Shown piece after piece: positions 6,921 to 25,923 of a stretch of 29,011 nt of DNA (the first letter of the stretch is position 1; each line of letters opens with the position of its first letter). The DNA comes from a virus: IMG/VR virus record IMGVR_UViG_3300035701_000206, positions 1 to 29,011 of that record, one strand, 5' to 3'. Both the position numbers and the translations under genes were made by a program. The notes under the pieces are model-generated. The model saw only the letters and a list, made by a program, of their open reading frames with translations, was not told the origin of the DNA and did no database searches.

Positions 6921-9900
6921 GCGCAGCATCAACATCACGATCTCGGCCCGCAACCTCACCAAGGAGGTCTGGGACCAGCTCGCCGCCGCGGCGGAGAAGA
7001 CCCAGAGCAAATTTGAAGGCGCCGGGAAAGCCGGTGGCGTCTTCACGAGCATCCTCGAATCCGGCTTTGCACGCCTGACGGCAGCGCTTTCGGTCGCCAA
7101 CCTCGTCAACAAAGCCGTCGATGCGGTCCTCAACTTCGCGCATGCGGGCTGGGGGGCCGGCGACATGCTCGTCAGCATGGCCGCAAAGACGGACCTGTCG
7201 ATTGGCTTCCTCCAGAAACTGCAGTTCGTCGCCGCGACGTCGTCGACGTCGCTCGAGAGCCTCACCAACCTCGCCTATGTACTTGGCGTGAACTTGGCCG
7301 GTGGCGACGCGAGCGTCGTCGCGGCGGTGAATAAGGTCGGTCTGTCGTTCGAGGCGCTGCTGCGCATGTCTCCCGATGAACAGTTCGAGGCCGTCGTGGT
7401 GGCGCTCGAGCATATGACGAACGCGGGGGAACGCAATCGTGCCGGCAACGCGTTGATGGGGCGAGCATATCGAGAGAACGCGGCGGCGTTGGCCCACTGG
7501 ACCGAGAAGAGCCAGGGCTTCGTGGGCGCGAGCGATGACGAGGTCCAAGCGCTCGCCAAACAGAAGGAAGCTTGGGAGGGCCTGAAACAGAGGATCACGG
7601 ACACCATGACGGCCAGGCTTGGCCAGATGGCCCTCGGCCTCGAGCAAGGGAAAAAGGAAATCGACGTCTACAAGTCGATGACGGCGGAGCAGCGGGCATA
7701 CTACCAGGAACTCTCCCGGGCGGGACTTGGCCAGCAATATCTTGCGAAACTTGCCGAGGAGCGGGCGGCGAAGGAACATGCCGCAAGCGTCTCCCAGCGA
7801 CAGGACGTCGCGCTGCTCTCCCCAGCCCAGGAAGCGGCTGCCATCATCACGGCCGCGCTCGCCGAAGCGCACGTGAAACTGAGTCCGGCCATCAGAGGCG
7901 CGGCTGAACAGTTGCTCAGGATGGGCCTCTCGGCCGATGAGGTCTTCGCCAAGTTGAAGGCGGGCGGCCTCGTGACCGAATTGCAACACAAAGCGATCAC
8001 CGTACTCGGCGAGGCTCACAAGAGCACGGGTGAAGCAGCGAAGAAACACGCAGAGGCCGTGACCGCGTACACCGAGAAAGTGACGCCCTCGAACGCGGAA
8101 TCGCGGGTGGCTGCCGAAGTGCTCCGAAAAGTCGGCGATGCGGGCATTCACCTGTCTCTGGGTCTTGAGAAGCTTCCGGGTCGCCTGATCGCCGTGTCGC
8201 TCGTGCTGAATGACATCGAGGAGCACGCCGCCTCCTCTCTCATCCCTCTACAGGACTTCGGATTTCTGGTCGGGCGGCAGATTCCTATCGCCGTCGAAGA
8301 TGGCGTGTTTTCACTCAACGCATGGGTCGACACCCTGCGGAAACTTCCGAAGGAAGCGAAGCCCGCGGGGTCGGCCGTCAGAGAGAGTTTCGATAAAATC
8401 GCCGAATCGCTCGTCCAGCTCGCGCAGGTGTCCGGCGACTCGTTTAGTTCCGTGCTGCAAGACATCGCCAGTTTCCTCGTCGCGATGAAGATGACGGATG
8501 AAGCTGGCAAGGGACTGAACAAGTCCTCCGGCGAGATCGGCGCGGCATTCAAAACCGGCGACCTGAAGGGGGGAGTCGCAGGTTTTGCCAACCTGGCCTC
8601 AAGCGCGCTGCAGGCCGGAGCCGCGATGGCCCAGGCCACCAGTAGCGGCAGCCAAGGGATGCGGGCACTCAAGGGGGCGGCGACCGGAGCGCAGATCGGC
8701 ATGGCATTCGGGCCAATCGGCGCGGCCGTGGGCGCGGCCGTGGGCGCGATCGTCGGCGCCATCCGCGGCCGGCAGAAGGAGTTTCAGAAGATCGCCAGTG
8801 ACATCGGCCGCGACATGGGCGTGAATATCAGCGAGGGGTTAGCAAAGGCGATCGAAGTCGACAGCAAGCGCCTCGGGGATCGGGTCGCGGCGTCGCTCCT
8901 GCACATCAACGACATCATCAAAGAGGCGGGAGGTGTCGAAGCCTTCGGCGTCGACAAGGCCATCGCGAAGACCCGGGACCTGTTCGTCCAGATTGCCACC
9001 GGCAAGCTCTCCGTCACGGAAGCGGGGAAGGCGTTCGACGAGGCATTCGGTGCCATCATCCCGGCGGCGATCGACAAGACGACGGGGTTAATCTCGAAAC
9101 AGGCCCTCGAGCTGATCCAGCTCGACGAGAAGTTCGGCACGCACGCGGCGAGCGTCGCGCAGTTTGTCGGCGCGCAACACACGAGCATCATCGGCGGGTT
9201 AAAGGCCTTCACTGACAATGCCGTCGTGACATCAGAGGGCGCGGCGAGCGGGCTGGCCGCGGCCGTCGCTGCGGCCTTCGCCCAGGCACAGGCCCAGGGT
9301 CTCTCGACGATCGAGGCGCTCAAAGAAATCGATCCGGTCGTCGCGACCCTTGAGGCGCAGTTCAAGGCGGCCGGCCTGTCAGGGGGCGACGCCTTCGGTT
9401 CGATCGCCAGCCTGGCGGCGGTCGCCCGCGACGAGATCGTCGCCAAGGGCATCACGGCCGTCGAAGGCCTCCGGCAGGTCCTCGTCGGCACCTACAACAC
9501 CGGGATCCTGAACCAGGAGATGTTTGCTGGCTTGGCGACGCAGATCAGCGACACGTACACCAGCCTGGTCGCGCAAGGGAAAGATGGGAACGCGATTCTG
9601 CGGCTGATGCAACCAGAACTACAAACGATCTGGGAACTCCAACAGAAGACGGGCTACACCGTCGACGAAACGACCCAGGCCCTGATCGACCAGGGCATCG
9701 CGGCCGGGATCGTCGGATCCGCGCACAAGAGCGCCGCCGATCGTGGGGCCGATGCGATGGAACGCGTCGCCGATACCCTCGATCGGATCGCCGACAAGAT
9801 GGGTGTGGCTGGGGACGCCGCCGGCACAATGGCCAGCAAAGTCACAAAGGCGATCGACCAGGTGCCCACGGATATTGACATCCGCTTTCATGCCAACTGG

Positions 9901-10194
9901 ACGCCGCCCGGTTCGCCGCCGGAGCCTGAATCTGAACCCACGCATCAAGCCGGTGCGGTCATCACGCGGACGCACCGGGCCCGGGTGCACGCCGGCGAAA
10001 TCATCGGCCCCGTGAGTTTCATGCGCGAGGCGCTGGCGGGGGCGCTCGCCGAACTGCGCGGATCGATGGGCACCGGGTCGGCCGGCGACAGACCAATCGA
10101 GATCACGGTCATTTCACAGCTGGAGGGTCAACAGGTGGCACGCACGGCCGTGCGATTCCTCCCTGATGAACTACGGCGGCTGGGGCTCGCATGA
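6913..10194 (+). CDS. Tape measure protein
   Basis: This is the longest gene, 1,093 residues, from GTG 6913 with an AGGGAAGGAA ribosome binding site just before. Tape measures set tail length and are ejected with DNA. Long helical, Ala-rich stretches run through the protein. Residues about 593-620 form a Gly/Ala-rich hydrophobic hairpin (FGPIGAAVGAAVGAIVGAI), the usual membrane-active part. The C-terminus (RARVHAGEIIGPVSFMREAL) has the short His-Ala-Gly-Glu motif common at tape measure ends. By lambda scaling, a protein this long suggests a tail somewhat longer than lambda's. It overlaps the next start by 4 bases. Confidence 0.9.
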   Translation: MAERSINITISARNLTKEVWDQLAAAAEKTQSKFEGAGKAGGVFTSILESGFARLTAALSVANLVNKAVDAVLNFAHAGWGAGDMLVSMAAKTDLSIGFLQKLQFVAATSSTSLESLTNLAYVLGVNLAGGDASVVAAVNKVGLSFEALLRMSPDEQFEAVVVALEHMTNAGERNRAGNALMGRAYRENAAALAHWTEKSQGFVGASDDEVQALAKQKEAWEGLKQRITDTMTARLGQMALGLEQGKKEIDVYKSMTAEQRAYYQELSRAGLGQQYLAKLAEERAAKEHAASVSQRQDVALLSPAQEAAAIITAALAEAHVKLSPAIRGAAEQLLRMGLSADEVFAKLKAGGLVTELQHKAITVLGEAHKSTGEAAKKHAEAVTAYTEKVTPSNAESRVAAEVLRKVGDAGIHLSLGLEKLPGRLIAVSLVLNDIEEHAASSLIPLQDFGFLVGRQIPIAVEDGVFSLNAWVDTLRKLPKEAKPAGSAVRESFDKIAESLVQLAQVSGDSFSSVLQDIASFLVAMKMTDEAGKGLNKSSGEIGAAFKTGDLKGGVAGFANLASSALQAGAAMAQATSSGSQGMRALKGAATGAQIGMAFGPIGAAVGAAVGAIVGAIRGRQKEFQKIASDIGRDMGVNISEGLAKAIEVDSKRLGDRVAASLLHINDIIKEAGGVEAFGVDKAIAKTRDLFVQIATGKLSVTEAGKAFDEAFGAIIPAAIDKTTGLISKQALELIQLDEKFGTHAASVAQFVGAQHTSIIGGLKAFTDNAVVTSEGAASGLAAAVAAAFAQAQAQGLSTIEALKEIDPVVATLEAQFKAAGLSGGDAFGSIASLAAVARDEIVAKGITAVEGLRQVLVGTYNTGILNQEMFAGLATQISDTYTSLVAQGKDGNAILRLMQPELQTIWELQQKTGYTVDETTQALIDQGIAAGIVGSAHKSAADRGADAMERVADTLDRIADKMGVAGDAAGTMASKVTKAIDQVPTDIDIRFHANWTPPGSPPEPESEPTHQAGAVITRTHRARVHAGEIIGPVSFMREALAGALAELRGSMGTGSAGDRPIEITVISQLEGQQVARTAVRFLPDELRRLGLA

Positions 10195-11825
10195 TACCCG
10201 TCTCCCTCACAATCGCGGCCGCCGCGAAAACGATGCTGCCGGGCTGGTCCGTTGATGCGGTCGCCAACGGCCGCGACACGTTGACGTGTGACGTGTCCTC
10301 TCCGGATGGTTCGTATCGCCCGGCTCTGGACGATGAACTCATTGTCGTCGAAAACGTCGGGGCATCTGCGTCCTCGCTCACGGTCGGGACCGGTTCTAAA
10401 ACCTTCGCAACTCAAGCGGGCCTTCCGCTGACCGTCGGCTTGCGCGTCCGGGCGTATAGCGAAGCCAGCGAGACGACCTGGATAGAGGGCGCGATCACGT
10501 CCTATTCGGGCACGACGCTCATCGTGAGCATCGATACGACGAGTGGAACCGGCACGTACAGCGATTGGCATATCGGCCCGCGGATCTTCGGGGGCGTGAT
10601 TCAAACGCCAGATGAACGCGGCGAAGACGATTGGGGCGGGCCGCCGATTCTCACACGCATCTCTGCGATCGACTTTAACGCGCTCGTGGACCGGCGGTAC
10701 ATCACAGCGACGATTCCAGCGGGCACGCTGAAAGCGGCGCTCCTGGTCGTTGAGCCGTATCTAACGACGTATGGGGTGACGCTCGATCCGGGTCAGGCGC
10801 CTGGGCCGAATCTTCCTGAGTTGGTCTATAGCCGTGCGAAGGCGGGCGACGTGTTCACGGAGTTGGCCACGCTGTCCGGGTACGTGTGGGAGATCGACTA
10901 CTACAAAGTCCTCCGGATGTTCGCGCCCGGGACCGTCTCGGCGCCGTTCAACATCACGACGGGCGACGGCCACGCAATCGGGGACATCACCACCGTCACG
11001 TCACGGGCCTCGGCGGGTATGGTGTACGCGAACCGCGTCATCGTGCAAGCGGGCACCCCTGAAGTGCCCATTGTCGCGCAGGCGCCGCTTCCGGCGTCCG
11101 AACCGACGGCCGAGCAGATCGCGCACGGGCTATGGGAGATCGTCATCGCCGCGCCCACGATCTTCGACCAGGCGACGGCGCAGGCACTCGCCGACGCCTA
11201 TCTGCTCCAGCGCACGCCGACGCCGAAGACCGTCAGGTATCAGACCAATGATGCGGGGTTGAAGCCCGGACAGACGCAGACCATCAACATCCCGACGCGA
11301 AACGTGAACAACGTCTTTATCCTCACCGAGGTGCGCACGCAGCAGGACGGGGATCTCTTGCTCCGCGCCGTGACAGCGCTCGAGGGCTCTATCTTTCAAC
11401 CGGGCTGGCGCAATCTCTATCAGCAATGGTTGCAGCCGTTGACGCAAGTGACGGTCGTACCAGGCGCGGCTGGCGGCGGGCGCACGGTGCATTTCTTGGG
11501 CGGTAGCGCCGTGGAATACGTCCAGTCGCCAGGCCCGGACTGGATTCCCGCGTCGGCCATTCAGGTCATCCTGGACACCATAGCAAGAGGCAGCGCGGCG
11601 GCGACGATCACGGTGCGGTTGCGCGCAACGGCCGGAAGCGTGACGGCCAGGCTGCGCAATCTGAGCGATGGAACGACGGTGGGCACGAGCGCGGCCGTGT
11701 CGTCCACAAGCTGGCAGACCGTCACATTCTCTTGCACGTTGACTCCGGGCAGTAAGGTGTACGAAATCCAAGTGTTAAGTTCCATTGCGGACACGGATGT
11801 CGCGTGCGTGGCCTATCTTGAGTGA
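10191..11825 (+). CDS. Tail tip hub / distal tail protein with C-terminal beta domain
   Basis: This 544-residue protein starts in an ATGA overlap with the tape measure. Residues 1-130 are beta-rich (ALDDELIVVENVG, RIFGGVIQTP). Residues 150-300 carry the pattern ISAIDFNALVDRRYI, AALLVVEPYLTTYGVTLD, LSGYVWEIDYYKVLRMF and GMVYANRVIV, which I associate with gp27-like hub proteins of phage tail tips. The last ~110 residues look like a jelly-roll carbohydrate-binding module (ITVRLRATAGSVTARLRNLS, WQTVTFSCTL). Its position after the tape measure agrees. It probably forms the ring at the end of the tube to which fibres attach. No lysin motif was seen. Confidence 0.65.
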   Translation: MIPVSLTIAAAAKTMLPGWSVDAVANGRDTLTCDVSSPDGSYRPALDDELIVVENVGASASSLTVGTGSKTFATQAGLPLTVGLRVRAYSEASETTWIEGAITSYSGTTLIVSIDTTSGTGTYSDWHIGPRIFGGVIQTPDERGEDDWGGPPILTRISAIDFNALVDRRYITATIPAGTLKAALLVVEPYLTTYGVTLDPGQAPGPNLPELVYSRAKAGDVFTELATLSGYVWEIDYYKVLRMFAPGTVSAPFNITTGDGHAIGDITTVTSRASAGMVYANRVIVQAGTPEVPIVAQAPLPASEPTAEQIAHGLWEIVIAAPTIFDQATAQALADAYLLQRTPTPKTVRYQTNDAGLKPGQTQTINIPTRNVNNVFILTEVRTQQDGDLLLRAVTALEGSIFQPGWRNLYQQWLQPLTQVTVVPGAAGGGRTVHFLGGSAVEYVQSPGPDWIPASAIQVILDTIARGSAAATITVRLRATAGSVTARLRNLSDGTTVGTSAAVSSTSWQTVTFSCTLTPGSKVYEIQVLSSIADTDVACVAYLE

Positions 11826-11831
11826 GGAACG

Positions 11832-14510
11832 ATGATGTTGAGACGAATCCTCGCGCCGGCGCTTGTGCTGCTCACGGTCGCGCCCGCATCTGCGCAGAGC
11901 GTCCGGGCGGATCGCGTGATCACACCTTTGCTGTACGCCAACATCACCAAGTCCCTCACGCTGGGCGGCACCGGCATAGAAGGCTGCATCACGAATCCGC
12001 CGACGACGGCGAATTGCGAAGCGGTGAGCGTGAGGCTTGCATCGGCCTTCCTCGAACAGCGGCTCATCACCGACAGCACTTTCCGGACGCAGTGGTTTGT
12101 CGGCACGGACGGCGGGCACGTGCGCGCGTACAACGGCGGCGGATGGATGCCGCTGAAGCTCGACGGCGGGCCGGTGCAGGTGGGCGGCGGCGGGCTCCAC
12201 GTCGGGACGTCGGACATCATCGACCCCGGCGCCGGCAACACGGCGCTCGACGGATACGTCGGGCTGCCGGGCTACGTGTCGCAGACCACCGGCTGGCGCG
12301 TCGACAACGCGGGTGGCGCCGATTTCCGCTACATCTTCACGGACGAGCTGCACGCCAAGAAGTTCATCGCCGACTTGGAGCAGGCGCTCGCCGGTGGGCA
12401 GATCATCGCCAAGAGCGTCGCGCAGATCGGCGCGATCTTTACGGCGCCGGCTCCAGGCTCGATCAGCACGCTGACTGTCAAGGATCTTCCCTCGGCGGCA
12501 GGCATGGCGGTGTTCGAGGCGGGCGACTACCTTCGCATCCGGACCTTCTCCCGATCCGGCGGAAGTCTCAGCATCACTGATGCCTGGGGCACGGTCGCCA
12601 GCTATACCGATCTCGACGGCGGACTCCAATCGTGGCAGTTCACGCGGCTGATCACCAACGGCGGGGCCATGACCACGGGCACGGAGATCGAGATTGATTC
12701 GATCGTGCTCGACTACGGGATCAGCGGGAACGGGTTCTACGAAGTGTCGGCCGTCGATGGCGTGTATGGCATCAATTCGCCCTACGCGCAGATCGTGACG
12801 TGGGCGGGGAACTCGCCCATCGCGGCGAATCAGACGCTGCGGGCCAGGCTCGGGAACCTGCGCGGGATTACCGGGACGACGGGCGAGTACGGTCTGATCG
12901 CCGGCACCTACGCAGGAACCGGCGGCACGTACTTCCGCGCGAGCAACCAAGCGTTCGAGCTGCACGGCATCGACCTCAAACTCTGGAACGGCACCACGAA
13001 CGTCTTGCGGCTGGACCACACGACGCCCTACTGGTCGATGGGCAATCCGGCGCCGACGACCTACAGCAGCGGGACGGGGTGCTGGTCGGGCATGGACGCG
13101 GGCGCGTACAAGTGGCGGTGCGGCAACCCGGCGGGCCAGATCATCGACTGGAACGGCACCACGCTCACGATCGTGGGCGACGTGCAGATCGTCGGGGAGT
13201 TGCCCGACGCGGCGAACTCGGCGAAGCTCGGCGGTGTGGCCGCGAGTGTGTTCATCGCGGCGAAGGACCGGGTGAACCTCGGCCTAGATGCGAGCGGCAA
13301 TCCGGCGATCCCGGCAGTGGCGGCGCCGAGCGGCAATGGACTCTACCTCTCGTCCGACCATGTCGGCTACTACGGATCGGGCGCGTGGAAGACCTACATG
13401 GACAACGCCGGGAACTTCTACCTGGGCGGCACGGGCGGGAATCTGACATGGGTGTCCGCGACGAACACGCTGACGATCTCGGCCACGCTCAGCGGGAGCG
13501 GCGCGGGCATCACGGCGATCAGCGGCGGGAACATCACGACCGACTCGATCACGGCGACCCAGATCGCCGCGAGCGCCATCACGACCTCAGAACTCGCGGC
13601 GAACAGCGTCACCTCGGCGGCCATCGTCGCCGGGACCATCGTCGCCTCGGACATCGCCGCCGGAGCGATCACCGCGTATGAGATCGCGGCGGTCACGATC
13701 ACCGGGGCGAACATTGCGGCTGGGACGATTACGGCCTCGAAGATCGCGGCAAATACTCTGACGGCGGCGGTCATCGACTCCGGAGCGATCGGGACGGATG
13801 AACTGTACGCGCAGGCGGTGACGGCGGACAAGATCGCTGCTGACACGATCACGGCCGGTCAGATTGCGGCGAGCGCCATCACGACGTCGGAGCTGGCAGC
13901 CCTCGCGGTGACGGCGGACAAGATCGCTGCTGACACGATCACGGCCGGTCAGATTGCGGCAAACGCCATCACGACCTCGGAGCTGGCGGCCAGCAGCGTG
14001 ACTGCTGACAAGCTGTCTGTCTCGACCCTCTCGGCCATCAGCGCCAACATTGGTACGGTGACGGCGGGGAGTATCAGTGGCGTGAGTCTTCGACTCGATG
14101 CGGGCGCATTGGGCGTGTCTTGTTCTGGTTCATTCCCCACGTCGTGTAAGTTCTTCGTGGCAGATACCGGATTGGTCGTGGCGGAAGATCTTGAGGCCGG
14201 TGATCTCTACGTCTACAACGATTTGCGGTTGACTGACTCCGATAGCCAGGTCTACATAAACAACCCTAGCACTACGGATTCTGCCGACTATCCGCTAGTC
14301 TGGAGTTCCGGCAACGGATGGGTGTATCGCAAGACCGACGGGGTTAACACGACGATCTGCGGCGGCGGCGTGGCGGGCCTCACGATCGAGCGGGGGATCG
14401 TGACGGACTACACCTGCGCCGCGCCCGAGCTGACGCCGGCCGCCCTGCTCGCGCGGATCGAACAGCTCGAAGCGCAACTCGCCGCGCTTCGCATAGAGGG
14501 ACGGCGATGA
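11832..14510 (+). CDS. Tail fibre protein with signal peptide and tandem repeats
   Basis: This 892-residue protein starts at ATG 11832 (or 11835) after GTGAGGAAC. The first 22 residues are a textbook Sec signal: MMLRRI, a hydrophobic core, then PASA before QS. Residues 150-370 resemble fibre/tip proteins (WRVDNAGGADFRYIFTDELH, FIADLEQALAGGQIIAKSV). About 565-735 is an array of short repeats of the type ITTSELAAxxVTADKIAADT. The C-terminus holds a heptad coiled coil (LLARIEQLEAQLAALR), useful for trimerisation. It probably contacts the host surface. A signal peptide on a virion fibre is odd, as assembly is cytoplasmic. A secreted or surface adhesin is the alternative. Confidence 0.75.
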   Translation: MMLRRILAPALVLLTVAPASAQSVRADRVITPLLYANITKSLTLGGTGIEGCITNPPTTANCEAVSVRLASAFLEQRLITDSTFRTQWFVGTDGGHVRAYNGGGWMPLKLDGGPVQVGGGGLHVGTSDIIDPGAGNTALDGYVGLPGYVSQTTGWRVDNAGGADFRYIFTDELHAKKFIADLEQALAGGQIIAKSVAQIGAIFTAPAPGSISTLTVKDLPSAAGMAVFEAGDYLRIRTFSRSGGSLSITDAWGTVASYTDLDGGLQSWQFTRLITNGGAMTTGTEIEIDSIVLDYGISGNGFYEVSAVDGVYGINSPYAQIVTWAGNSPIAANQTLRARLGNLRGITGTTGEYGLIAGTYAGTGGTYFRASNQAFELHGIDLKLWNGTTNVLRLDHTTPYWSMGNPAPTTYSSGTGCWSGMDAGAYKWRCGNPAGQIIDWNGTTLTIVGDVQIVGELPDAANSAKLGGVAASVFIAAKDRVNLGLDASGNPAIPAVAAPSGNGLYLSSDHVGYYGSGAWKTYMDNAGNFYLGGTGGNLTWVSATNTLTISATLSGSGAGITAISGGNITTDSITATQIAASAITTSELAANSVTSAAIVAGTIVASDIAAGAITAYEIAAVTITGANIAAGTITASKIAANTLTAAVIDSGAIGTDELYAQAVTADKIAADTITAGQIAASAITTSELAALAVTADKIAADTITAGQIAANAITTSELAASSVTADKLSVSTLSAISANIGTVTAGSISGVSLRLDAGALGVSCSGSFPTSCKFFVADTGLVVAEDLEAGDLYVYNDLRLTDSDSQVYINNPSTTDSADYPLVWSSGNGWVYRKTDGVNTTICGGGVAGLTIERGIVTDYTCAAPELTPAALLARIEQLEAQLAALRIEGRR
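13815..13994 (+). repeat. Tandem 90-bp repeat inside the fibre gene
   Basis: Units 13815-13904 and 13905-13994 share an identical 56-base block (13815-13870 and 13905-13960), followed by 34 bases with several differences. The period is 30 codons. They encode two copies of AVTADKIAADTITAGQIAA. Older, more diverged units extend from about 13530 to 14030. The near-identity suggests recent duplication and possible length variation of the fibre shaft. Confidence 0.85.
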
Positions 14511-15016
14511 GACGAACGTCGGTTGTGTTGCTGGCTGTGCTCCTGGCCGCGTGCGGCGGGCCTGGGCCGGTTGTGCCGACGGCGCCCACGCCGCCTGTGC
14601 CTGCGAGCATCAGCGGGCGCTACGCGGGCCAGGTGACCGTGAGCGACGTTCGGGGCGACCCCTGCGCGGCGCAGCAGCTGAGCGCAGCCGCGCGGATCGA
14701 CGCCACCCTGCTCGCGGCGGGCACCACGCTGTCCGGCGAGGTCCGTTCCGGGGACTTCCCGAGGCTCGACTGCGACTACGCGGGCAGCTCGACGCCGGAG
14801 GGGTTCATCGCCCTGTCCACGCGCTGCGCGGTCGTCGCCGTGGAGGTCATCGGATGCCCCGGCGGGCGCCGCGCGCTGCAGTTGTTCAGCCAGCAGTTGG
14901 CATCCTATTGGATCGGCCAGCGGACCATGACCGGCTGGCACGTGGAGACGTGGAGGGACGGCGAGACGCTCCTGACCGTGACCCACACGTTCAGACTCGA
15001 TAGGGTCGGAGGATAA
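14507..15016 (+). CDS. Lipoprotein between two fibre genes
   Basis: This 169-residue protein has a type II signal: MRRTSVVLLAVLLAAC, with lipobox LAAC and Cys16, followed by a Gly-Pro-Val-Val-Pro-Thr linker. The mature part is beta-rich, starts with ISGRYAGQVTVSDV and has four further Cys that could form disulfides. The gene begins in an ATGA overlap with the fibre gene, so its translation is coupled. Its function is not recognised. A lipoprotein beside receptor-binding genes recalls T5 Llp, which blocks the receptor after infection; that is inference only. It would sit on the inner or outer membrane of the host. Confidence 0.7.
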   Translation: MRRTSVVLLAVLLAACGGPGPVVPTAPTPPVPASISGRYAGQVTVSDVRGDPCAAQQLSAAARIDATLLAAGTTLSGEVRSGDFPRLDCDYAGSSTPEGFIALSTRCAVVAVEVIGCPGGRRALQLFSQQLASYWIGQRTMTGWHVETWRDGETLLTVTHTFRLDRVGG

Positions 15017-15020
15017 AGAC

Positions 15021-16289
15021 ATGAAGAGACGCGCATCGTGGCTCATGCTCTGCGCCCTGCTGTGGACCCCGCTGGTCTACGGGCAGGTCGTCATCGCCCC
15101 GTCGCCCGTCCCGGTCTGGACGAACAACTGCGTCGTCCAATACTGGACGAGCGACACCCAACTCCACTGCGTGGCCATCTCGGGGGTCTCGCAGCCGCTC
15201 ACCGATAGCGTGGGCCTCATCGCCGACAGCGCGAACGCGACGAAGATCCTCGCCTTCGAGGTCTCGGCCATCGCAAACGCGACGACGCGCACCTGGACGA
15301 TCCCGAACGCGAACATCACGATCCCGACGACGATCGCGAGCCTCGCGGCCAACACGTTCACCGGGCTGCAGACGGCGAACGGCGGAATCGCGGGGACGAC
15401 CGGGACGTTCAGCAGCACGGTGGACATCACCGGCAAGCTCACGCTGAGCGCGACGAACAACGCGGTCGGCACGGTCACGAGCGGGGTGTGGAACGCGGGG
15501 GCGGTGACGAGCAGCGGCGGGATCGCTGGAACGACGGGAACGTTCAGTTCGACGTTAGGAGTATCAGGAAACACGACTCTCTATATTCCCAACGCTGCTG
15601 GTGCTTTTGTGCCGTTGAAGTTGAGTATGGCGCCGGGTGGTGTTACTGGTTCACAGGCTATTGAACTTGGTTTGTACGATGGCGACTATGGGGCGTCAAT
15701 TAGAGCCGCGTACAATTATAACTCAGCGATCAGCGCGACCCTGATTTTCGCCACCTCCACGACGGCCGGGACAAAGACCGACGCGCTGACCGTTGGGGCC
15801 ACCCAACTTGTGCGGATGCACGCCTACGGCGCAGGCACGGCGACCTTCGACGCCTCGGGCAACATCACCTCCGTCTCGGACGAACGGATGAAGGTGATCC
15901 TCGGCCCCTTCACGCCCGGCCTCAACGCGCTGCTCGGCCTCCGACCCATCCTCCACCGGTACACAGAGGCCTCGGGTCTCGACACGGAGAACGTCTACGC
16001 CAGCTTCTCTGCGCAGAACGTCATGGGCTACATCCCCGAGGCGGTCGGGAAGAATCTCGATGGGCGCTATTCGATCAACATCGTCCCAATCGTGGCGGCG
16101 ACGGTGACGGCCGTGCAGGAACTGTCCCGCGAGGTGGACGAGCTGCGCGCGGCTGCGAACCTGCCCGCGAGGAACCGCGTCGTCGCCAAGGTGACGGACG
16201 AGAAGCGCATCGTGAACAGCGCCACGCCGAAGCGACTCGCGGAGATCGCCAAACAGAACGCCAAGAAAGCCAAGGAGATCATCCGATGA
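15021..16289 (+). CDS. Tail fibre/spike with signal peptide and S74 intramolecular chaperone
   Basis: This 422-residue protein starts at ATG 15021, with GGAGGA just upstream. Residues 1-21 look like a Sec signal (MKRRASWLMLCALLWTPLVY). Two copies of GGIAGTTGTFSST (about 121-133 and 166-178) lie in a beta-rich shaft. The C-terminal domain has VSDERMK at 285-291, the S74 peptidase signature with Ser286 and Lys291, then ALLGLRPILHRY, FSAQNVMGYIPEAV and a final coiled coil. S74 domains trimerise the fibre and then cut themselves off before the Ser. So a mature fibre of about 265 residues is predicted. DNA of 15550-15730 is less GC-rich than its surroundings. Confidence 0.8.
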   Translation: MKRRASWLMLCALLWTPLVYGQVVIAPSPVPVWTNNCVVQYWTSDTQLHCVAISGVSQPLTDSVGLIADSANATKILAFEVSAIANATTRTWTIPNANITIPTTIASLAANTFTGLQTANGGIAGTTGTFSSTVDITGKLTLSATNNAVGTVTSGVWNAGAVTSSGGIAGTTGTFSSTLGVSGNTTLYIPNAAGAFVPLKLSMAPGGVTGSQAIELGLYDGDYGASIRAAYNYNSAISATLIFATSTTAGTKTDALTVGATQLVRMHAYGAGTATFDASGNITSVSDERMKVILGPFTPGLNALLGLRPILHRYTEASGLDTENVYASFSAQNVMGYIPEAVGKNLDGRYSINIVPIVAATVTAVQELSREVDELRAAANLPARNRVVAKVTDEKRIVNSATPKRLAEIAKQNAKKAKEIIR

Positions 16290-16639
16290 CCTGCCGTCCC
16301 CGTCTCCCCGTCGTCGTCTTCGCCGTCGTGGGCCTGCTCTGGCTGGCGGTCCCGGCCGCCGCGCAGGAGAAGCCCGCGCCGCCCAAGCCGCCCGAGGTCG
16401 CGGCCGTCGCACCCGAGAAGCCGCCGGCCCTGGGCGAGGTCCCGAAGCTGCAAATCCAGCTCGCGATGAAGAGCATCGAGAACGCGCAGCTCCGGGCGCA
16501 GCAGGCGGCGGCCGAGTTCGAGAAGGCGCGGGGAGACCTGCTCGCGCTCGTGCAGGCGCACCAGGTCGCCGGCTATGAGCTCGACCTCCAGACGCTATCG
16601 TATATCCAAAAGAAACAGCAACCCGAAGTGAAGAAGTGA
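16286..16639 (+). CDS. Small secreted coiled-coil protein
   Basis: This 117-residue protein begins in an ATGA overlap with the S74 fibre gene. It has a clear Sec signal (MTCRPRLPVVVFAVVGLLWL, then AVPAAA before QE), a Pro/Lys/Ala-rich segment and a long helix from about 50 to 100 (LQIQLAMKSIENAQLRAQQ, FEKARGDLLALVQAH). I do not know the family. The helix could form a coiled coil in the periplasm. It might be a chaperone or spanin-like factor, but no lipobox or transmembrane anchor supports the spanin idea. Confidence 0.65.
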   Translation: MTCRPRLPVVVFAVVGLLWLAVPAAAQEKPAPPKPPEVAAVAPEKPPALGEVPKLQIQLAMKSIENAQLRAQQAAAEFEKARGDLLALVQAHQVAGYELDLQTLSYIQKKQQPEVKK

Positions 16640-17217
16640 TGAGTGTCGGAATGGGACGAGCGTTGGTTCAGAAACGATGCGAGCGCTGCGGGCAAGAGTT
16701 CTCTGCGCGTGTGGCTGCTCTCAAGATTGGCAAAGGAAGATTCTGTTCTCATAAATGTGCCAACACGGTTAATTCCAGGCTCGCACGAAAGCCTGCTCGG
16801 CAAGGGCAACAAGCGAAGCGCGATTATATGCGCGCGTGGAATCAAAAGAACGCAGTCAAACAACGCGAACGGCGGAAGCAATATCGACTCGCAAACATGG
16901 AGCAGGTTCGGTCGACCCTACGGCGGTACACCCTTAAGCGTCGGTACGGCATCACCGAGGCCGACTATCAGCGGATGTTAGCGGCACAGGACGGTCGATG
17001 CGCAATCTGTCGAACCAACGAACCTCCAAAACACAAGGATGGATCGCCGAAGCGGTGGCATGTTGATCATGACCATCTCACCGGAGTCGTTCGCGGGCTT
17101 CTGTGTAGATCGTGCAACAACGGCCTCGGGCACTTTCGCGATAGCGCTCATTTGCTGATGGCTGCCTTGACCTATGTCAAGAAGCCGACTGAGCCGCCGA
17201 AAAAGGAGATCCCATGA
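16639..17217 (+). CDS. Endonuclease VII-like HNH nuclease with N-terminal zinc finger
   Basis: This 192-residue protein starts in a TGATG overlap. Residues 14-40 hold a CxxC...CxxxC finger (CERCGQEF, FCSHKC). The middle is a basic helix. Residues 121-163 carry the recombination endonuclease VII signature: CAIC, then WHVDHDHLTG, VRGLLCRSCNNGLG. Cys121, Cys124, Cys156 and Cys159 should bind zinc, and His144 with nearby Asp residues forms the active site. T4 endonuclease VII resolves branched DNA. Here the late-gene location and the finger favour a free-standing mobile endonuclease. Its DNA is visibly less GC-rich than the fibre genes. Confidence 0.8.
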   Translation: MSVGMGRALVQKRCERCGQEFSARVAALKIGKGRFCSHKCANTVNSRLARKPARQGQQAKRDYMRAWNQKNAVKQRERRKQYRLANMEQVRSTLRRYTLKRRYGITEADYQRMLAAQDGRCAICRTNEPPKHKDGSPKRWHVDHDHLTGVVRGLLCRSCNNGLGHFRDSAHLLMAALTYVKKPTEPPKKEIP

Positions 17218-17447
17218 ACGGCGCGGAATGGGCAGTGATGATGGGGATTGCGACAGGGCTGGGACTACCGGGGCTCGGGGGGCTCATCTTCATCGTCCGG
17301 ATGGAGAGTCGTGTGACCGCGATTGAGTCGCGTCACGAAGAGGACACGAAGTGGCACGGGTGCGTCGACAGCAAGCTCGCGCTCATCGCGCGGGATGTCA
17401 ACCGGCTGATCGGGCGGTTGGGAGCCACAGACGAAGGGGACCGATAG
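17214..17447 (+). CDS. Small membrane protein, possible holin or holin partner
   Basis: This 77-residue protein starts in an ATGA overlap. One hydrophobic segment (about residues 6-28, Gly/Leu/Ile-rich) is followed by a charged, probably helical tail with a Cys (HGCVDSKLALIARDVNRLIG). The next gene, the endolysin, starts inside its stop codon. A single-span protein directly before a peptidase suggests a role in lysis, such as a holin or an XhlA-like partner. The sequence cannot settle it; 19949-20164 is a second candidate. Confidence 0.6.
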   Translation: MNGAEWAVMMGIATGLGLPGLGGLIFIVRMESRVTAIESRHEEDTKWHGCVDSKLALIARDVNRLIGRLGATDEGDR

Positions 17448-17877: not shown

Positions 17878-18156
17878 ATGATGATTACGCTGAAATCTTT
17901 TCACGGTAAGTATGTTTCGATCGATCCGCTGGGACGCGTTGTGGCGGATCGTGACGTGGCTCGCTCGTGGGAGCAAGTCACGGTTGAACCCATCGCCGCG
18001 CCCTCGCCCGTTCCTGGCACTCGCCTGGTCGCGCTGAAATCGGCGCATGGCAAGTACCTGTCGGCACAGCCCGACGGTTCGCTCATCGCTGATCGAGACA
18101 TCGTCGGCGCGTGGGAGCAGTTCGAGGTGGCTGCGGATTTTCTCGCCGGCCTCTGA
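17878..18156 (+). CDS. Small two-repeat protein, fascin/beta-trefoil-like
   Basis: This 92-residue protein follows a strong AGGAGG ribosome binding site (ATG 17878 or 17881). It is two copies of a ~45-residue unit. The first reads LKSFHGKYVS, then VVADRDVARSWEQVTVEP. The second reads LKSAHGKYLS, then LIADRDIVGAWEQFEVAA. This HGKY(L/V)S...ADR...WE pattern is that of fascin-type beta-trefoil repeats, which in other proteins bind actin or sugars. A full trefoil needs three or four such units, so this protein probably forms a dimer or half fold. It follows the endolysin gene, so a wall- or glycan-binding role is possible. Confidence 0.65.
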   Translation: MMITLKSFHGKYVSIDPLGRVVADRDVARSWEQVTVEPIAAPSPVPGTRLVALKSAHGKYLSAQPDGSLIADRDIVGAWEQFEVAADFLAGL

Positions 18157-18208: not shown

Positions 18209-18799
18209 GTGAGGCTTAAACCAAGGAAGACACTCGCGGATCGGTTATGGCCACATGTTCGCAAGACAGACACATGCTGGCTCTGGACAGGATACAGAGA
18301 TACTAACGGTTACGGACGCATCTACGACTACACCGAGGACGGCCCCACATGGTCGCATCGAGCCGTGTGGGAACTTGTGAATGGACCTATTCCGAGTGGA
18401 CTGTGCGTTCTACATCACTGCGACAATCCAGGGTGCGTCCGACCCGATCATCTCTTTCTCGGCACGATGGCAGACAATGCACACGACATGGTGGCGAAGG
18501 GGCGTCACTTAATTGGCCGCATGATCGGTGCAAACAAGATATGCGGCGATGCAAACGGGAGCAGATTACACCCAGAGCGATTAGATCGCGGCAAAGACCA
18601 CTGGGCCAATCGGATGCCGGAACGTATCCCGCGGGGCTATCGGCATTCCAGTTCTAAACTTAATCCCGAGGCGGTCGCGCAGATTCGCAGCTTACGCGGT
18701 CATGTTTCATCATCTGCTCTTGCTCGACGCTTCAGGGTTGGAGGGTCAACTATCAAGCGTTGCTGGCGCGGTAAAACATATCGCGAGGTCGCTGCATGA
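18209..18799 (+). CDS. HNH homing endonuclease with C-terminal helix-turn-helix (copy A)
   Basis: This 196-residue protein starts at GTG 18209 with a weak ribosome binding site. Residues 23-100 form the HNH_3 core: CWLWTG, GYGRI, HRAVWEL, IPSGLCVLHHCDNPGCVRPD, HLFLGTMADNAHDM and KGR. The C-terminus (about 152-196) looks like a DNA-binding helix-turn-helix (LNPEAVAQIRSLRG, SALARRFRVGGSTIKRCWRG). The same architecture occurs at 20832-21314. Such genes cut at a target site and spread by repair. It sits between the trefoil-like gene and the glycosidase-like gene and ends in an ATGA overlap with the latter. Confidence 0.85.
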   Translation: MRLKPRKTLADRLWPHVRKTDTCWLWTGYRDTNGYGRIYDYTEDGPTWSHRAVWELVNGPIPSGLCVLHHCDNPGCVRPDHLFLGTMADNAHDMVAKGRHLIGRMIGANKICGDANGSRLHPERLDRGKDHWANRMPERIPRGYRHSSSKLNPEAVAQIRSLRGHVSSSALARRFRVGGSTIKRCWRGKTYREVAA

Positions 18800-20656: not shown

Positions 20657-20854
20657 TTGTCTCAGTTCGCACGCCTTCCGTCGCCGCCTTGTCCGTCTTG
20701 CGGATGTCCGACTCTCACGATGTGGGTGCGTGACGTGAAGCTCAGCGATGGCCGGCGGATCAAGGAGTACTCTTGTGATGCCTGTGGTTGTGGATTCAAG
20801 ATAGAATCAGCGGACGCGCCGGAGTGTAAGCATGAGATTTCACAAGCCCGCTGA
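20657..20854 (+). CDS. Zinc-ribbon protein
   Basis: TTG 20657 gives 65 residues, with GGAG at 20645-20648. The sequence PCPSCGCPTL, then KEYSCDACGCGFKIE is a two-knuckle zinc ribbon (CxxC at about 12-15 and again about 40-43). It overlaps the following HNH gene by 23 bases. Small zinc-ribbon proteins of this type are common in phages, with unknown partners. The start codon choice is uncertain, since no ATG is available upstream of the first CxxC. Confidence 0.55.
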   Translation: MSQFARLPSPPCPSCGCPTLTMWVRDVKLSDGRRIKEYSCDACGCGFKIESADAPECKHEISQAR

Positions 20855-21314
20855 GGAACGTTTCTGGCTCAAAGTAAGGCGGACGCAGCAGTGTTGGGAA
20901 TGGGCCGGTTCTCGAGTGAACACTGGCTATGGAGCTTTCAACGTCGGTTCGTCGCTGAATCATAGGCGCGGCCATTCCGTTGGTGCGCATCGGTACTGTT
21001 GGGAATTGCACTACGGAAAGATTCCAGCGGGGCTCTGTGTTCTCCATCATTGTGATAATCGCGGCTGCGTTCGACCAGATCATCTCTTCCTCGGCACGTT
21101 CGCTGACAACGCTCAGGACATGATTCGCAAAGGCCACCGATTTCAGCCAAAGACCGCTGGCGAATCTCATGGCGAGGCCAAACTGACAGATTTAGACGTG
21201 CGTCGGATTCGCGCATCGCAGGAATCGGGACGTCAGTTGGCAACTATGCTTGGTGTGAGCCCATCTCTTGTCTCGTCAGTTCGGCTTCGGAAGACCTGGA
21301 GACACATCGCGTAG
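20832..21314 (+). CDS. HNH homing endonuclease with C-terminal helix-turn-helix (copy B)
   Basis: This 160-residue protein is a relative of 18209-18799. Residues 21-102 hold CWEWAG, TGYGAF, AHRYCWELHYG, GLCVLHHCDNRGCVRPD, HLFLGTFADNAQDM and KGH. The C-terminal part (about 113-157) has HGEAKLTDLDVRRIRASQ and RQLATMLGVSPSLVSSVR, a helix-turn-helix often fused to phage HNH enzymes. Its DNA is lower in GC than its neighbours. It is the last rightward gene before the leftward small-gene operon. Confidence 0.85.
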   Translation: MRFHKPAEERFWLKVRRTQQCWEWAGSRVNTGYGAFNVGSSLNHRRGHSVGAHRYCWELHYGKIPAGLCVLHHCDNRGCVRPDHLFLGTFADNAQDMIRKGHRFQPKTAGESHGEAKLTDLDVRRIRASQESGRQLATMLGVSPSLVSSVRLRKTWRHIA

Positions 21315-22307: not shown

Positions 22308-22745
22308 TCAATCGATCTTGGTGGTCAACTCGACGCTCGGGATGTCCGTCGCATGCTCGGCGAGTCCGGTGTACTCGCCCTGGCCGATCGAGCCGAGCAG
22401 CCCCGCGCAGCGCATGCAGTAATAGGCGGTCACTTGGACGCGCGAGCCGACCAGCCGCGTCCACTCTTGCTGCCGGTAGCTGGTCGCGCCGTCCACCTGG
22501 CATCCGCACCGCTCGCAGGTCTCATCGTGGCGCTCGATCTGCTCCGTCCGGACGTTGTGCTCGGTGATGAGTCTGGCGATGTCGGCGAGTGAGGGATGGC
22601 CGAGGTGGGTCGCCAGTGTAGTCATCGGCACGCGGCTGCCGATGTAGCAGCGACCGTCCGTAACATGATCGATCTCGATGATAGTGATCGCACCCTTGGC
22701 GGGGGCATCGGCTCTGGCGGTCTGGAGGCTGGGGTAAGTCGTCAT
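22308..22745 (-). CDS. Unknown protein with Cys-pair domain (145 aa)
   Basis: This is the first gene of the leftward operon; ATG 22745 has the leader GGAGATAGAGAG. Residues 1-70 are mixed alpha/beta (AITIIEIDHV, TLATHLGHPSLADIARLITE). Then come CERCGC at about 77-82 and YYCMRCAGLL near 109-118, a likely zinc-binding pair. Function unknown. A promoter is predicted 26-54 bases upstream. Confidence 0.65.
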   Translation of the reverse strand: MTTYPSLQTARADAPAKGAITIIEIDHVTDGRCYIGSRVPMTTLATHLGHPSLADIARLITEHNVRTEQIERHDETCERCGCQVDGATSYRQQEWTRLVGSRVQVTAYYCMRCAGLLGSIGQGEYTGLAEHATDIPSVELTTKID

Positions 22746-22760
22746 CTCTCTATCTCCATC
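22741..22760 (-). repeat. 20-bp gene-leader repeat, copy 3 (one mismatch)
   Basis: On the - strand it differs from the other two copies by GGAGAT in place of GGAGGT. It covers the ribosome binding site and start (at 22745) of the 145-aa gene. Confidence 0.8.
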
Positions 22761-22770
22761 CTACAGCTAC

Positions 22771-22799
22771 AGTATACACATATGAGAGACAGAGCGCAA
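22771..22799 (-). promoter_or_regulatory. Putative promoter of the leftward small-gene operon
   Basis: On the - strand TTGCGC (22794-22799), a 17-base spacer and TATACT (22771-22776) precede the 145-aa gene by a leader of about 18-20 bases that carries the ribosome binding site. The -10 includes a GTATAC palindrome also found in the 23678-23706 promoter. The -35 is a weak match. Confidence 0.5.
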
Positions 22800-23414
22800 G
22801 GGGAATCGGCAGGCAGGATACCGATTTTGAAGGGAAAGCGACCGGAAAGCGATATAATAGCGAAAGTGGCTGAAAAGTCGAGCATTTATGAGCGTTTCAA
22901 GGCCGCCCATCCTGGTTATTGGGCCACTTACAATGCACGGTATTACTCTGAACACGCCGACGAGATAAAGGCGCGAACGCGAGCAAATTATCAGAAGAAG
23001 AAGGCGGCGTATGCCACCCGTTACCTTGTGAGACGGGAAGCCATCGCCGAACGCAACAGGACTCGCCGGCAAGTCATCGCTGATGTACTTCGCGCGAGGG
23101 CTCGTGCCGGTTATGCACGAGATCCTCATTCAGCCATCGCGAGAGCGAACAAACGCCGCGCGCTGAAGTCTACAGCCGCCATCGGAACTGATCGTGCCGC
23201 CTATCAAGCATTCGTAAAACTGGTGCGACAAGCTGAGATGATCGCTTGTCACTGGTGTCGAGCCCCGGTTCCAGCCTCAGAACGTCGCATCGATCACATC
23301 ATTCCACTCGTCAAAGGTGGCCCCGACGCCGTGGAGAATTTGTGTTGTGCTTGCCGCCTTTGTAATGCGAGAAAAGGCGATAAATTACCGAGTGAATGGA
23401 TGGAAGATGGATAG
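22782..23414 (+). CDS. HNH endonuclease (classical CxxC zinc type)
   Basis: The longest sensible form is 210 residues from ATG 22782, which lacks a ribosome binding site. GTG 22866 (182 residues) is the better start, because a TATAAT lies 8 bases before it. The first half is a basic helical region (FKAAHPGYWATYNARYYSEH). The C-terminal core has ACHWCRAPV, then RRIDHIIPLVKGGPDAVENL and CACRLCNARKGD: the HNH motif with two zinc Cys pairs and Asp-His. It is probably a free-standing mobile endonuclease. It points away from the leftward operon and meets a convergent zinc-ribbon gene, with a hairpin between them. Confidence 0.82.
   Translation: MRDRAQGESAGRIPILKGKRPESDIIAKVAEKSSIYERFKAAHPGYWATYNARYYSEHADEIKARTRANYQKKKAAYATRYLVRREAIAERNRTRRQVIADVLRARARAGYARDPHSAIARANKRRALKSTAAIGTDRAAYQAFVKLVRQAEMIACHWCRAPVPASERRIDHIIPLVKGGPDAVENLCCACRLCNARKGDKLPSEWMEDG
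22827..22858 (+). promoter_or_regulatory. Putative promoter for the HNH gene
   Basis: A perfect TATAAT lies at 22853-22858. The best -35 is TTGAAG at 22827-22832, spaced 20 bases, which is longer than ideal. The predicted start of transcription falls at or next to GTG 22866, so a leaderless message is likely if this is used. Confidence 0.4.
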
Positions 23415-25269: not shown

Positions 25270-25923
25270 TTATCGCACTTCTTCAAAGGACCAGGAGACA
25301 CCGCTCGAATTGGTGATCGCGACCACGCCGCCACCGCCGGTCAGGAGCGTCCCGTCATACCGCGTTGTGCCCCAGCCGATCCCCAAGAGTTCATTGACGA
25401 TCAGGCGACCGCCGATCTTGACGATGAAGTTCGAACTGTAACCGCTATAGGTGCCGATGATGCGGACGCGCGCGATCGACGTTGGCATATCGAACACTGC
25501 ATCTCCCACGCCGGTTCTGGTCCAGGGGATGAAAGGTTGCACCCGGAACGTCTGGCCGGCCATCTTCCCTTGGTAGACGGCGACCACGTCGGCCTCGCCA
25601 GCGTTCCTGATCGTCACCAATCCCGTCGTACTCACGGTCGCGACGTTCGCGTTCGTTGAACTCCACTGCGCTTGAGTGGTGATGTTCTGCGTCGTGCTGT
25701 TCGAGAGTTGCGCAGTGGCCGTGAGTTGAACGGTGCCGCTTCCTGCGATCGCGGCGCAGATGCCGGCAGCACAGCCCGGGCCGGTGACGGTGAGACTCGT
25801 CACCGTCACGGTCGGGGTCGGGATTGACGGAGTTGTCGGAGCTGTAGGGGTCTTCGTCGCATCTCCCCCGCAGGCCGCCAAAACCACGCCGAGCGCCACC
25901 GCGCCGAAGTACCGCAGTTTCAT
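25270..25923 (-). CDS. Lipoprotein with Ig-like (BIG2-type) domain
   Basis: This 217-residue protein has an AGGAGAA ribosome binding site and lipobox VLAAC with Cys18, followed by GGDATKTPTAPTTP, a linker to the surface. Residues 35-110 resemble a bacterial Ig-like group 2 domain (VTSLTVTG, GTVQLTATAQLSNS, AQWSSTNANVATVSTTGLVT). The C-terminal ~100 residues are a beta domain (ARVRIIGTYSGYSSNFIVKI). It lies between integrase and repressor, a typical site for genes expressed in the lysogen. It may change the host surface or exclude other phages. Style and linker resemble Acidobacteriota lipoproteins. Confidence 0.78.
   Translation of the reverse strand: MKLRYFGAVALGVVLAACGGDATKTPTAPTTPSIPTPTVTVTSLTVTGPGCAAGICAAIAGSGTVQLTATAQLSNSTTQNITTQAQWSSTNANVATVSTTGLVTIRNAGEADVVAVYQGKMAGQTFRVQPFIPWTRTGVGDAVFDMPTSIARVRIIGTYSGYSSNFIVKIGGRLIVNELLGIGWGTTRYDGTLLTGGGGVVAITNSSGVSWSFEEVR

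Follow-up and report, generated by a model that had tools for sequence, protein, structure and literature searches.

The genomic fragment analysed here, referred to as the window, is the whole 29,011-nucleotide (29 kb) virus record IMGVR_UViG_3300035701_000206 of IMG/VR, in which genes for a major head protein, tail tube, tape measure, hub, fibres, an M15-type endolysin and an integrase were found. The interval from hub to endolysin, a late tail operon, holds the four genes under study (11832-16639), the order being tape measure, hub, fibre, lipoprotein, S74 fibre and coiled-coil partner (Table 1). The fibre locus thus lies directly after the tail hub and upstream of the endolysin, not within the lysogeny module. 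Six bases separate the hub stop from the fibre start, ATGA overlaps join the fibre to the lipoprotein (14507-14510) and the S74 fibre to the coiled-coil gene (16286-16289), and a 4-base gap lies 5' of 15021. Readthrough or frameshifting that would join hub and fibre was considered and rejected: a single frame runs around the TGA in the window, yet the arrangement is not conserved, since at several other loci the two genes overlap by ATGA and are in different frames. In the window phage and about twenty other uncultured phages the tail-fibre proteins and a small partner carry a predicted export tag, from which it appears that part of the host-gripping apparatus is made outside the cell interior.

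Signal peptides were called with a purpose-written script that searches for n-, h- and c-regions followed by an AxA or lipobox site. Signals in four consecutive genes had been claimed in an earlier note on this DNA; the starts, coordinates and N-termini are as described there, and the script calls all four, with a Sec signal peptide in three and a lipobox in one. The N-termini show the n-, h- and c-regions and the signal peptidase site of Sec-exported proteins, not the signal-less start of an ordinary cytoplasmic tail fibre. Five of the 22 window genes were positive, the fifth being a minus-strand lipoprotein (25270-25923), which was typed as a plain signal peptide, yet has the lipobox LAAC; no signal was called in the other 17. 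Given five positives in 22 genes, a run of at least four has a probability of 0.012. As a measure of specificity, 22/5844 in-frame internal starts of related fibre genes passed the caller; residue shuffles of these N-termini still passed in 5-25% of cases, which makes composition the weaker control. Because shuffled hydrophobic N-termini often still pass, this first check alone is modest. Stronger evidence comes from the conservation of signal and cleavage site in relatives and from paired cysteines.

Table 1. Features of the adsorption region of the window (a slash marks the predicted cut; E, expectation value; pLDDT, predicted local distance difference test; L001, the nearest relative, described in the text)
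Feature	Position	Strand	Details
Tail hub (gp27/lambda-J-like), directly upstream of fibre	10191-11825	+	No signal peptide; PHROG tail protein, E 0.0027
Hub C-terminal beta-sandwich domain, carbohydrate-binding-module (CBM)-like	11508-11822	+	CBM60, E 0.0013, below cut-off; Foldseek: CBM4, CBM6, EclA sugar-binding domain
Tail fibre, 892 residues, predicted exported	11832-14510	+	PHROG 892 tail fiber, E 1.9e-22; L001 homologue 59% over 624 residues
Fibre Sec signal peptide	11832-11894	+	MMLRRILAPALVLLTVAPASA/QSVRAD; predicted cut after residue 21 (ASA/Q); signal kept in L001
Lipoprotein, 169 residues, accessory	14507-15016	+	Lipobox; absent from L001, no relative found in the viral collection
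Lipoprotein signal peptide	14507-14551	+	MRRTSVVLLAVLLAA/CGG; lipobox LAA/C
Second fibre, 422 residues, predicted exported, putative S74 (endosialidase chaperone-like) C-terminus	15021-16289	+	PHROG 1980 tail fiber, E 1.2e-10
S74 fibre Sec signal peptide	15021-15083	+	MKRRASWLMLCALLWTPLVYG/QVV; site VYG/Q
Putative S74 domain	15876-16046	+	E 4.3e-4; bit score 21, just under the cut-off of 22
Coiled-coil partner, 117 residues, predicted exported	16286-16639	+	Family A9; AlphaFold2 on 13 homologues, pLDDT 82.5
Partner Sec signal peptide	16286-16363	+	MTCRPRLPVVVFAVVGLLWLAVPAAA/QEK; site AAA/Q

The nearest relative, L001 (IMG/VR 3300024187_000021), has the same order of hub, fibre, counterpart of the S74 protein and partner, with signals retained on all three genes after the hub and the lipoprotein absent. 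Its counterpart of the S74 protein agrees at 54% over the first 144 residues, aligned from residue 1, and differs at the C-terminus. In the window protein the PDB tail fibre 8jov matches the S74 end (E 1.5e-4). In a different phage (L018) an S74 fibre and a partner each have a signal, and the hub led to L037/L041 and L038, where it is directly followed by a signal-bearing fibre. The lipoprotein at 14507-15016 has no relative in the viral collection and no Pfam or PHROG match, and by this comparison it is an accessory insertion; for the same reason the conserved unit is taken to be fibre, second fibre and partner. The four genes, described in the earlier note as a single translationally coupled string, are thus not one unit.

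Two scans with fibre-core segments only (A7 and A8), blind to the N-terminus, yielded 131 fibre loci, among which a fibre signal peptide occurs in 19 distinct lineages (L125 doubtful); beyond these it occurs in the window, L038, L018 and L026. Homologues that keep the signal, proposed in the earlier note as a check, are therefore present, L001 among them, and because of the 19 lineages the arrangement is read as a recurrent adsorption module rather than a quirk of the window phage. Gln is the predicted first residue of the mature protein in almost every signal-bearing fibre; in some of them the cut was shifted by eye to a nearby A/Q or G/Q site. The earlier note had counted homologues without the segment as evidence against export. 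Literally, most fibre-core relatives do lack it, yet their layout differs: the rest of the 131 loci have ordinary fibre N-termini or a fibre fused to the hub, whereas in signal-bearing loci the fibres are separate genes and not hub extensions. Signals were found in 14/44 of the genes occupying the three places after signal-bearing fibres, in 3/121 upstream and in 9/244 after signal-less fibres. On the core trees the trait is clustered, but both fibre-core families require about five changes each, with at least two changes forced by well-supported branches. Since Salinibacter phages have the same core within fused hub-fibre proteins that are annotated as structural, its ancestral role was probably that of a virion fibre. 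Degenerate tandem repeats with units such as ITAxQIAA lie inside the window fibre at 13530-14002 (+), and whole-fibre matches to Geobacillus, Mannheimia and Paracoccus phage fibres fall in or around this segment.

If the fibres are exported, an oxidising compartment is expected for their cysteines. Cysteines were counted as paired when they were mutual nearest neighbours within 45 residues, in 20 non-redundant full-length signal-bearing fibres and 77 signal-less relatives. In the signal-bearing fibres 98/113 cysteines were paired, against 47 +/- 6 under random placement (maximum 62 in 500 draws); in the signal-less relatives 162/407 were paired, with 123 +/- 10 at random. The cysteine count was even in 17/20 signal-bearing fibres versus 35/74 signal-less ones, and at least 75% of cysteines were paired in 13/17 versus 4/78, a comparison from which descent is not removed. 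At one aligned place the window and L001 read GTGCWSG...KWRCG, where the signal-less L002 reads GDGVWMG...KWRVG. Such local pairing resembles that of disulphide-bonded exported proteins.

The coiled-coil partner consists, in its AlphaFold2 model, of the signal, a proline-rich linker, one long helix (residues 51-91) and a C-terminal beta hairpin (97-108). A first profile, built from four coiled-coil proteins, found more members beside signal-bearing fibres, and the enlarged family (A9, 13 members) shares the linker, the single helix and the hairpin, often with PGYxL...YV. No Pfam or PHROG family is common to its members, no Foldseek match was obtained for the confident model, PDB profile matches were generic coiled coils, and neither homology nor fold linked the partner to a known fibre chaperone. 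The gene is present in 13/16 signal-bearing loci with enough downstream sequence versus 5/85 others, a ratio somewhat inflated because four members entered the profile only after the regions behind signal-bearing fibres had been viewed and because the 16 include a few near-copies; one of the five others, L161, has a signal-bearing fibre broken by frameshifts. In L161 the hub, fibre and partner (8472-12100) are all frameshifted, as if indels had been left uncorrected in the assembly.

The state of the partner follows that of the fibre. Its N-terminus is hydrophobic in 16/16 listed signal-bearing loci (weak in L114), mostly with an AxA/Q-type cleavage site, and in 0/5 loci with signal-less fibres (L146, L148, L154, L156 and the weak hit L159), where the chain begins directly at the linker; relatives that lack the fibre segment and keep the coiled-coil gene hence have it likewise signal-less. 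Because the two states match, the partner would be located in the fibre's compartment either way, as would be expected of a protein that acts on the fibre but not of a spanin, and most likely it is a dedicated assembly or trimerisation factor of the fibres. Spanin function, in which the gene would be an Rz-type inner-membrane member of the lysis cassette and its adjacency to the fibre incidental, is suggested by the hydrophobic N-terminus and helical ectodomain and by its position as the last gene before probable holin/endolysin genes in L001, L113 and L123. Rz/Rz1 are alike in being exported helical proteins upstream of holin and endolysin, but the partner has a predicted cleavable signal rather than an uncleaved anchor, and its signal-less homologues always stand beside signal-less fibres, where a spanin would be unable to act from the cytoplasm; this explanation is very unlikely.

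Between fibre and partner, some loci contain a small beta-protein family ending in LNxANLTTRSLxxRL...DG...GTVxGxPR (L117 11421-11792, L047 12516-12881, L026 10718-11065, L037 14408-14698), for which no PHROG match was found. A signal is present in L117, L047 and L026 and absent in L037; since the fibre state is therefore not strictly followed, the family was left out of the argument. Downstream of the module L117 also encodes a 1549-residue signal-bearing protein with 20 cysteines (12731-17380).

The hub could be modelled only with low confidence (mean pLDDT 48), and only hub-type and CBM-type matches were used from it; the best Foldseek matches are phage hubs, namely the MuSo2 43-kDa tail protein (3cdd), the HFTV1 tail and the lambda tail tip. 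A profile of its C-terminal domain hits, at E < 0.001, only loci with signal-bearing fibres and always at the hub end, one signal-less locus (L156) giving a borderline score. Hub sequence passes directly into fibre sequence in L039 and other fused relatives. The domain may be a docking site for the fibre or the phage's own receptor binder.

Taken together, the relatives, the paired cysteines and the matching partner state lend good support to the earlier proposal that proteins of the adsorption region, the fibres among them, are exported, and export of the fibres is considered highly probable. The signals, their recurrence, the cysteine pairs, the partner state and the linked hub domain are all features of sequence. 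From them a model was proposed in which hub and fibre are split: the hub would be made and assembled in the cytoplasm, while the fibre, the S74 fibre and the partner would cross the inner membrane by cleavable Sec signals. Signal peptidase I would cut before Gln, folding would take place in the periplasm with local disulphides in the fibres, and the partner would aid fibre assembly or trimerisation there. When holin and endolysin mix the compartments at lysis, the fibres would most likely attach to the tail tip. The steps that we infer are export itself with cleavage, oxidation, the chaperone role and docking at lysis. As a whole, this exported-fibre variant of the siphophage adsorption module is given an even chance, and for fibres that are exported and then joined to the virion the chance is even or just short of it. 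A wider proposal is offered tentatively, at somewhat less than even chance: that some tailed phages may finish virions outside the cytoplasm, with Sec-exported fibres and a chaperone, periplasmic oxidation and trimerisation, and attachment to a special hub C-terminal domain at lysis. Such an assembly route would be transferable and not confined to a single odd phage, because the trait is spread between different fibre cores.

Several points weigh against virion assembly by this route. The signal caller is home-made, the cysteine count is odd in 3/20 signal-bearing fibres, and the five signal-less partners represent about two lineages. Tail-module kinship could explain the distribution of the hub profile, which derives from signal-bearing phages, and a sugar-binding-like hub domain acting as receptor binder could leave the exported fibre without a role in the virion. 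When 50,697 phage records were searched by tblastn with the fibre, the hub and the partner, no member that had been cultured or characterised by proteomics came to light; the matches were confined to Salinibacter phage fibres without a signal, short fibre repeats and weak matches to hubs or tails. The associations are not independent of descent: each tree has only two supported independent pairs, too few for a test, and tree-controlled contrasts, which are underpowered, were in favour in one fibre family and weak in the other.

The main rival, though unlikely, is that exported fibres never join the virion but are released, at lysis or through a host outer-membrane system, to act as decoys or to mask receptors, binding those of debris, kin or neighbours, the virion itself attaching by the CBM-like hub domain. 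The tie of that domain to signal-bearing loci and the separation of their fibres from the hub would both agree with it, as would a phage lipoprotein lying among the fibre genes. T5 Llp and Cor are superinfection-exclusion lipoproteins. Likewise the phage lipoprotein Ltp of TP-J34, encoded beside the integrase, excludes superinfection (PMC3952083). The lipoprotein at 14507-15016 resembles these three as a small phage lipoprotein with a lipobox, but no homologue of it was found in the viral collection, it lies in a late tail operon, and it is not conserved alongside the fibres. Against release also speaks the position of the genes, upstream of the endolysin and outside the lysogeny module, and a folded trimer would have no visible route across the outer membrane before lysis.

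Lysogenic conversion, by which host-like surface adhesins acquired by the phage would be displayed on the infected cell or lysogen, is improbable. Its precedent is Lom of lambda, a signal-bearing outer-membrane protein whose gene stands after J and before that of the side tail fibre and which is expressed in the lysogen (PMC12309495), and the window phage is probably temperate, since an integrase and a helix-turn-helix regulator are encoded. Both systems place a signal-bearing gene right after the hub. Lom, however, is an accessory outer-membrane barrel and genes of its type are optional, fibre-independent extras (morons), whereas here the signal is on the fibre itself, which in many phages keeps its position behind the hub, and the partner follows the fibre state; moreover the fibre cores are homologous to virion proteins of other phages. 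Still less probable is an uncleaved tail-binding or membrane-piercing virion helix in place of a signal. The segment is absent in most relatives and so is not needed for the fibre core, which would suit such a helix, but almost every lineage has the basic n-region, small residues at the cleavage site and a Gln at +1, and a binding helix explains neither these nor the cysteine pairing nor the partner N-terminus in step with the fibre. The recurrent cleavage site thus disfavours the tail-binding helix that the earlier note had named as an alternative.

Several known systems come close to the arrangement described here. Lambda-like siphophage fibres after the hub (PHROG 892 and 1980, S74) are alike in the order tape measure, hub, fibre, in the fibre repeats and in the putative S74 tail, and the fused hub-fibre proteins of Salinibacter phages have the same core domain. 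To our knowledge, known tail fibres have no signal peptide and assemble in the cytoplasm; the fibres described here differ by a predicted cleavable signal and paired cysteines. T4 gp57A/gp38 and Tfa are fibre assembly chaperones, alike to the partner as small genes beside the fibre, mostly one helix, in the fibre's compartment; the partner differs in having no detectable homology to them, a predicted export signal and a C-terminal beta hairpin. Coat proteins of filamentous phages are made with signal peptides and assembled at the membrane, and so provide a case of virion proteins passing through the inner membrane before assembly, whereas the present phages are tailed. In one survey the absence of a signal peptide in phage-encoded variable proteins was remarked on and read as support for phage origin (PMC6199706). 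No description of a signal peptide on a tailed-phage fibre was found in the full-text literature searched, a limited collection.

If widespread, the module would add a morphogenesis route to tail fibres, whose folding and assembly are otherwise assigned to the cytoplasm, and an exported class would explain how disulphide-stabilised fibres are made. The succession of hub, signal-bearing fibre and signal-bearing coiled-coil protein provides a genomic mark for finding more cases, and the signal state of the partner predicts that of the fibre, which offers a test. Where a signal peptide is taken as the mark of a host gene and the protein is discarded, receptor-binding proteins of soil phages may go unnoticed.

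Other features of the window touch the lysis and lysogeny regions. Two genome-collection scans aimed at the host found no relative, and plasmid searches with the two window lipoproteins gave nothing useful. The lipoprotein at 25270-25923 (MKLRYFGAVALGVVLAAC) has an immunoglobulin-like Big_2 domain, adjoins the integrase and is a candidate lysogenic-conversion or superinfection-exclusion gene. Four endonuclease VII/HNH genes lie within 7 kb on the plus strand (16636-17217, 18209-18799, 20832-21314 and 22596-23414), an accumulation of homing-type endonucleases within and beyond the lysis region, the first of which overlaps the end of the coiled-coil gene. Directly after the M15 endolysin a small fascin/FRG1-like beta-trefoil protein is encoded (17878-18156, +), which is unusual for a phage lysis region.

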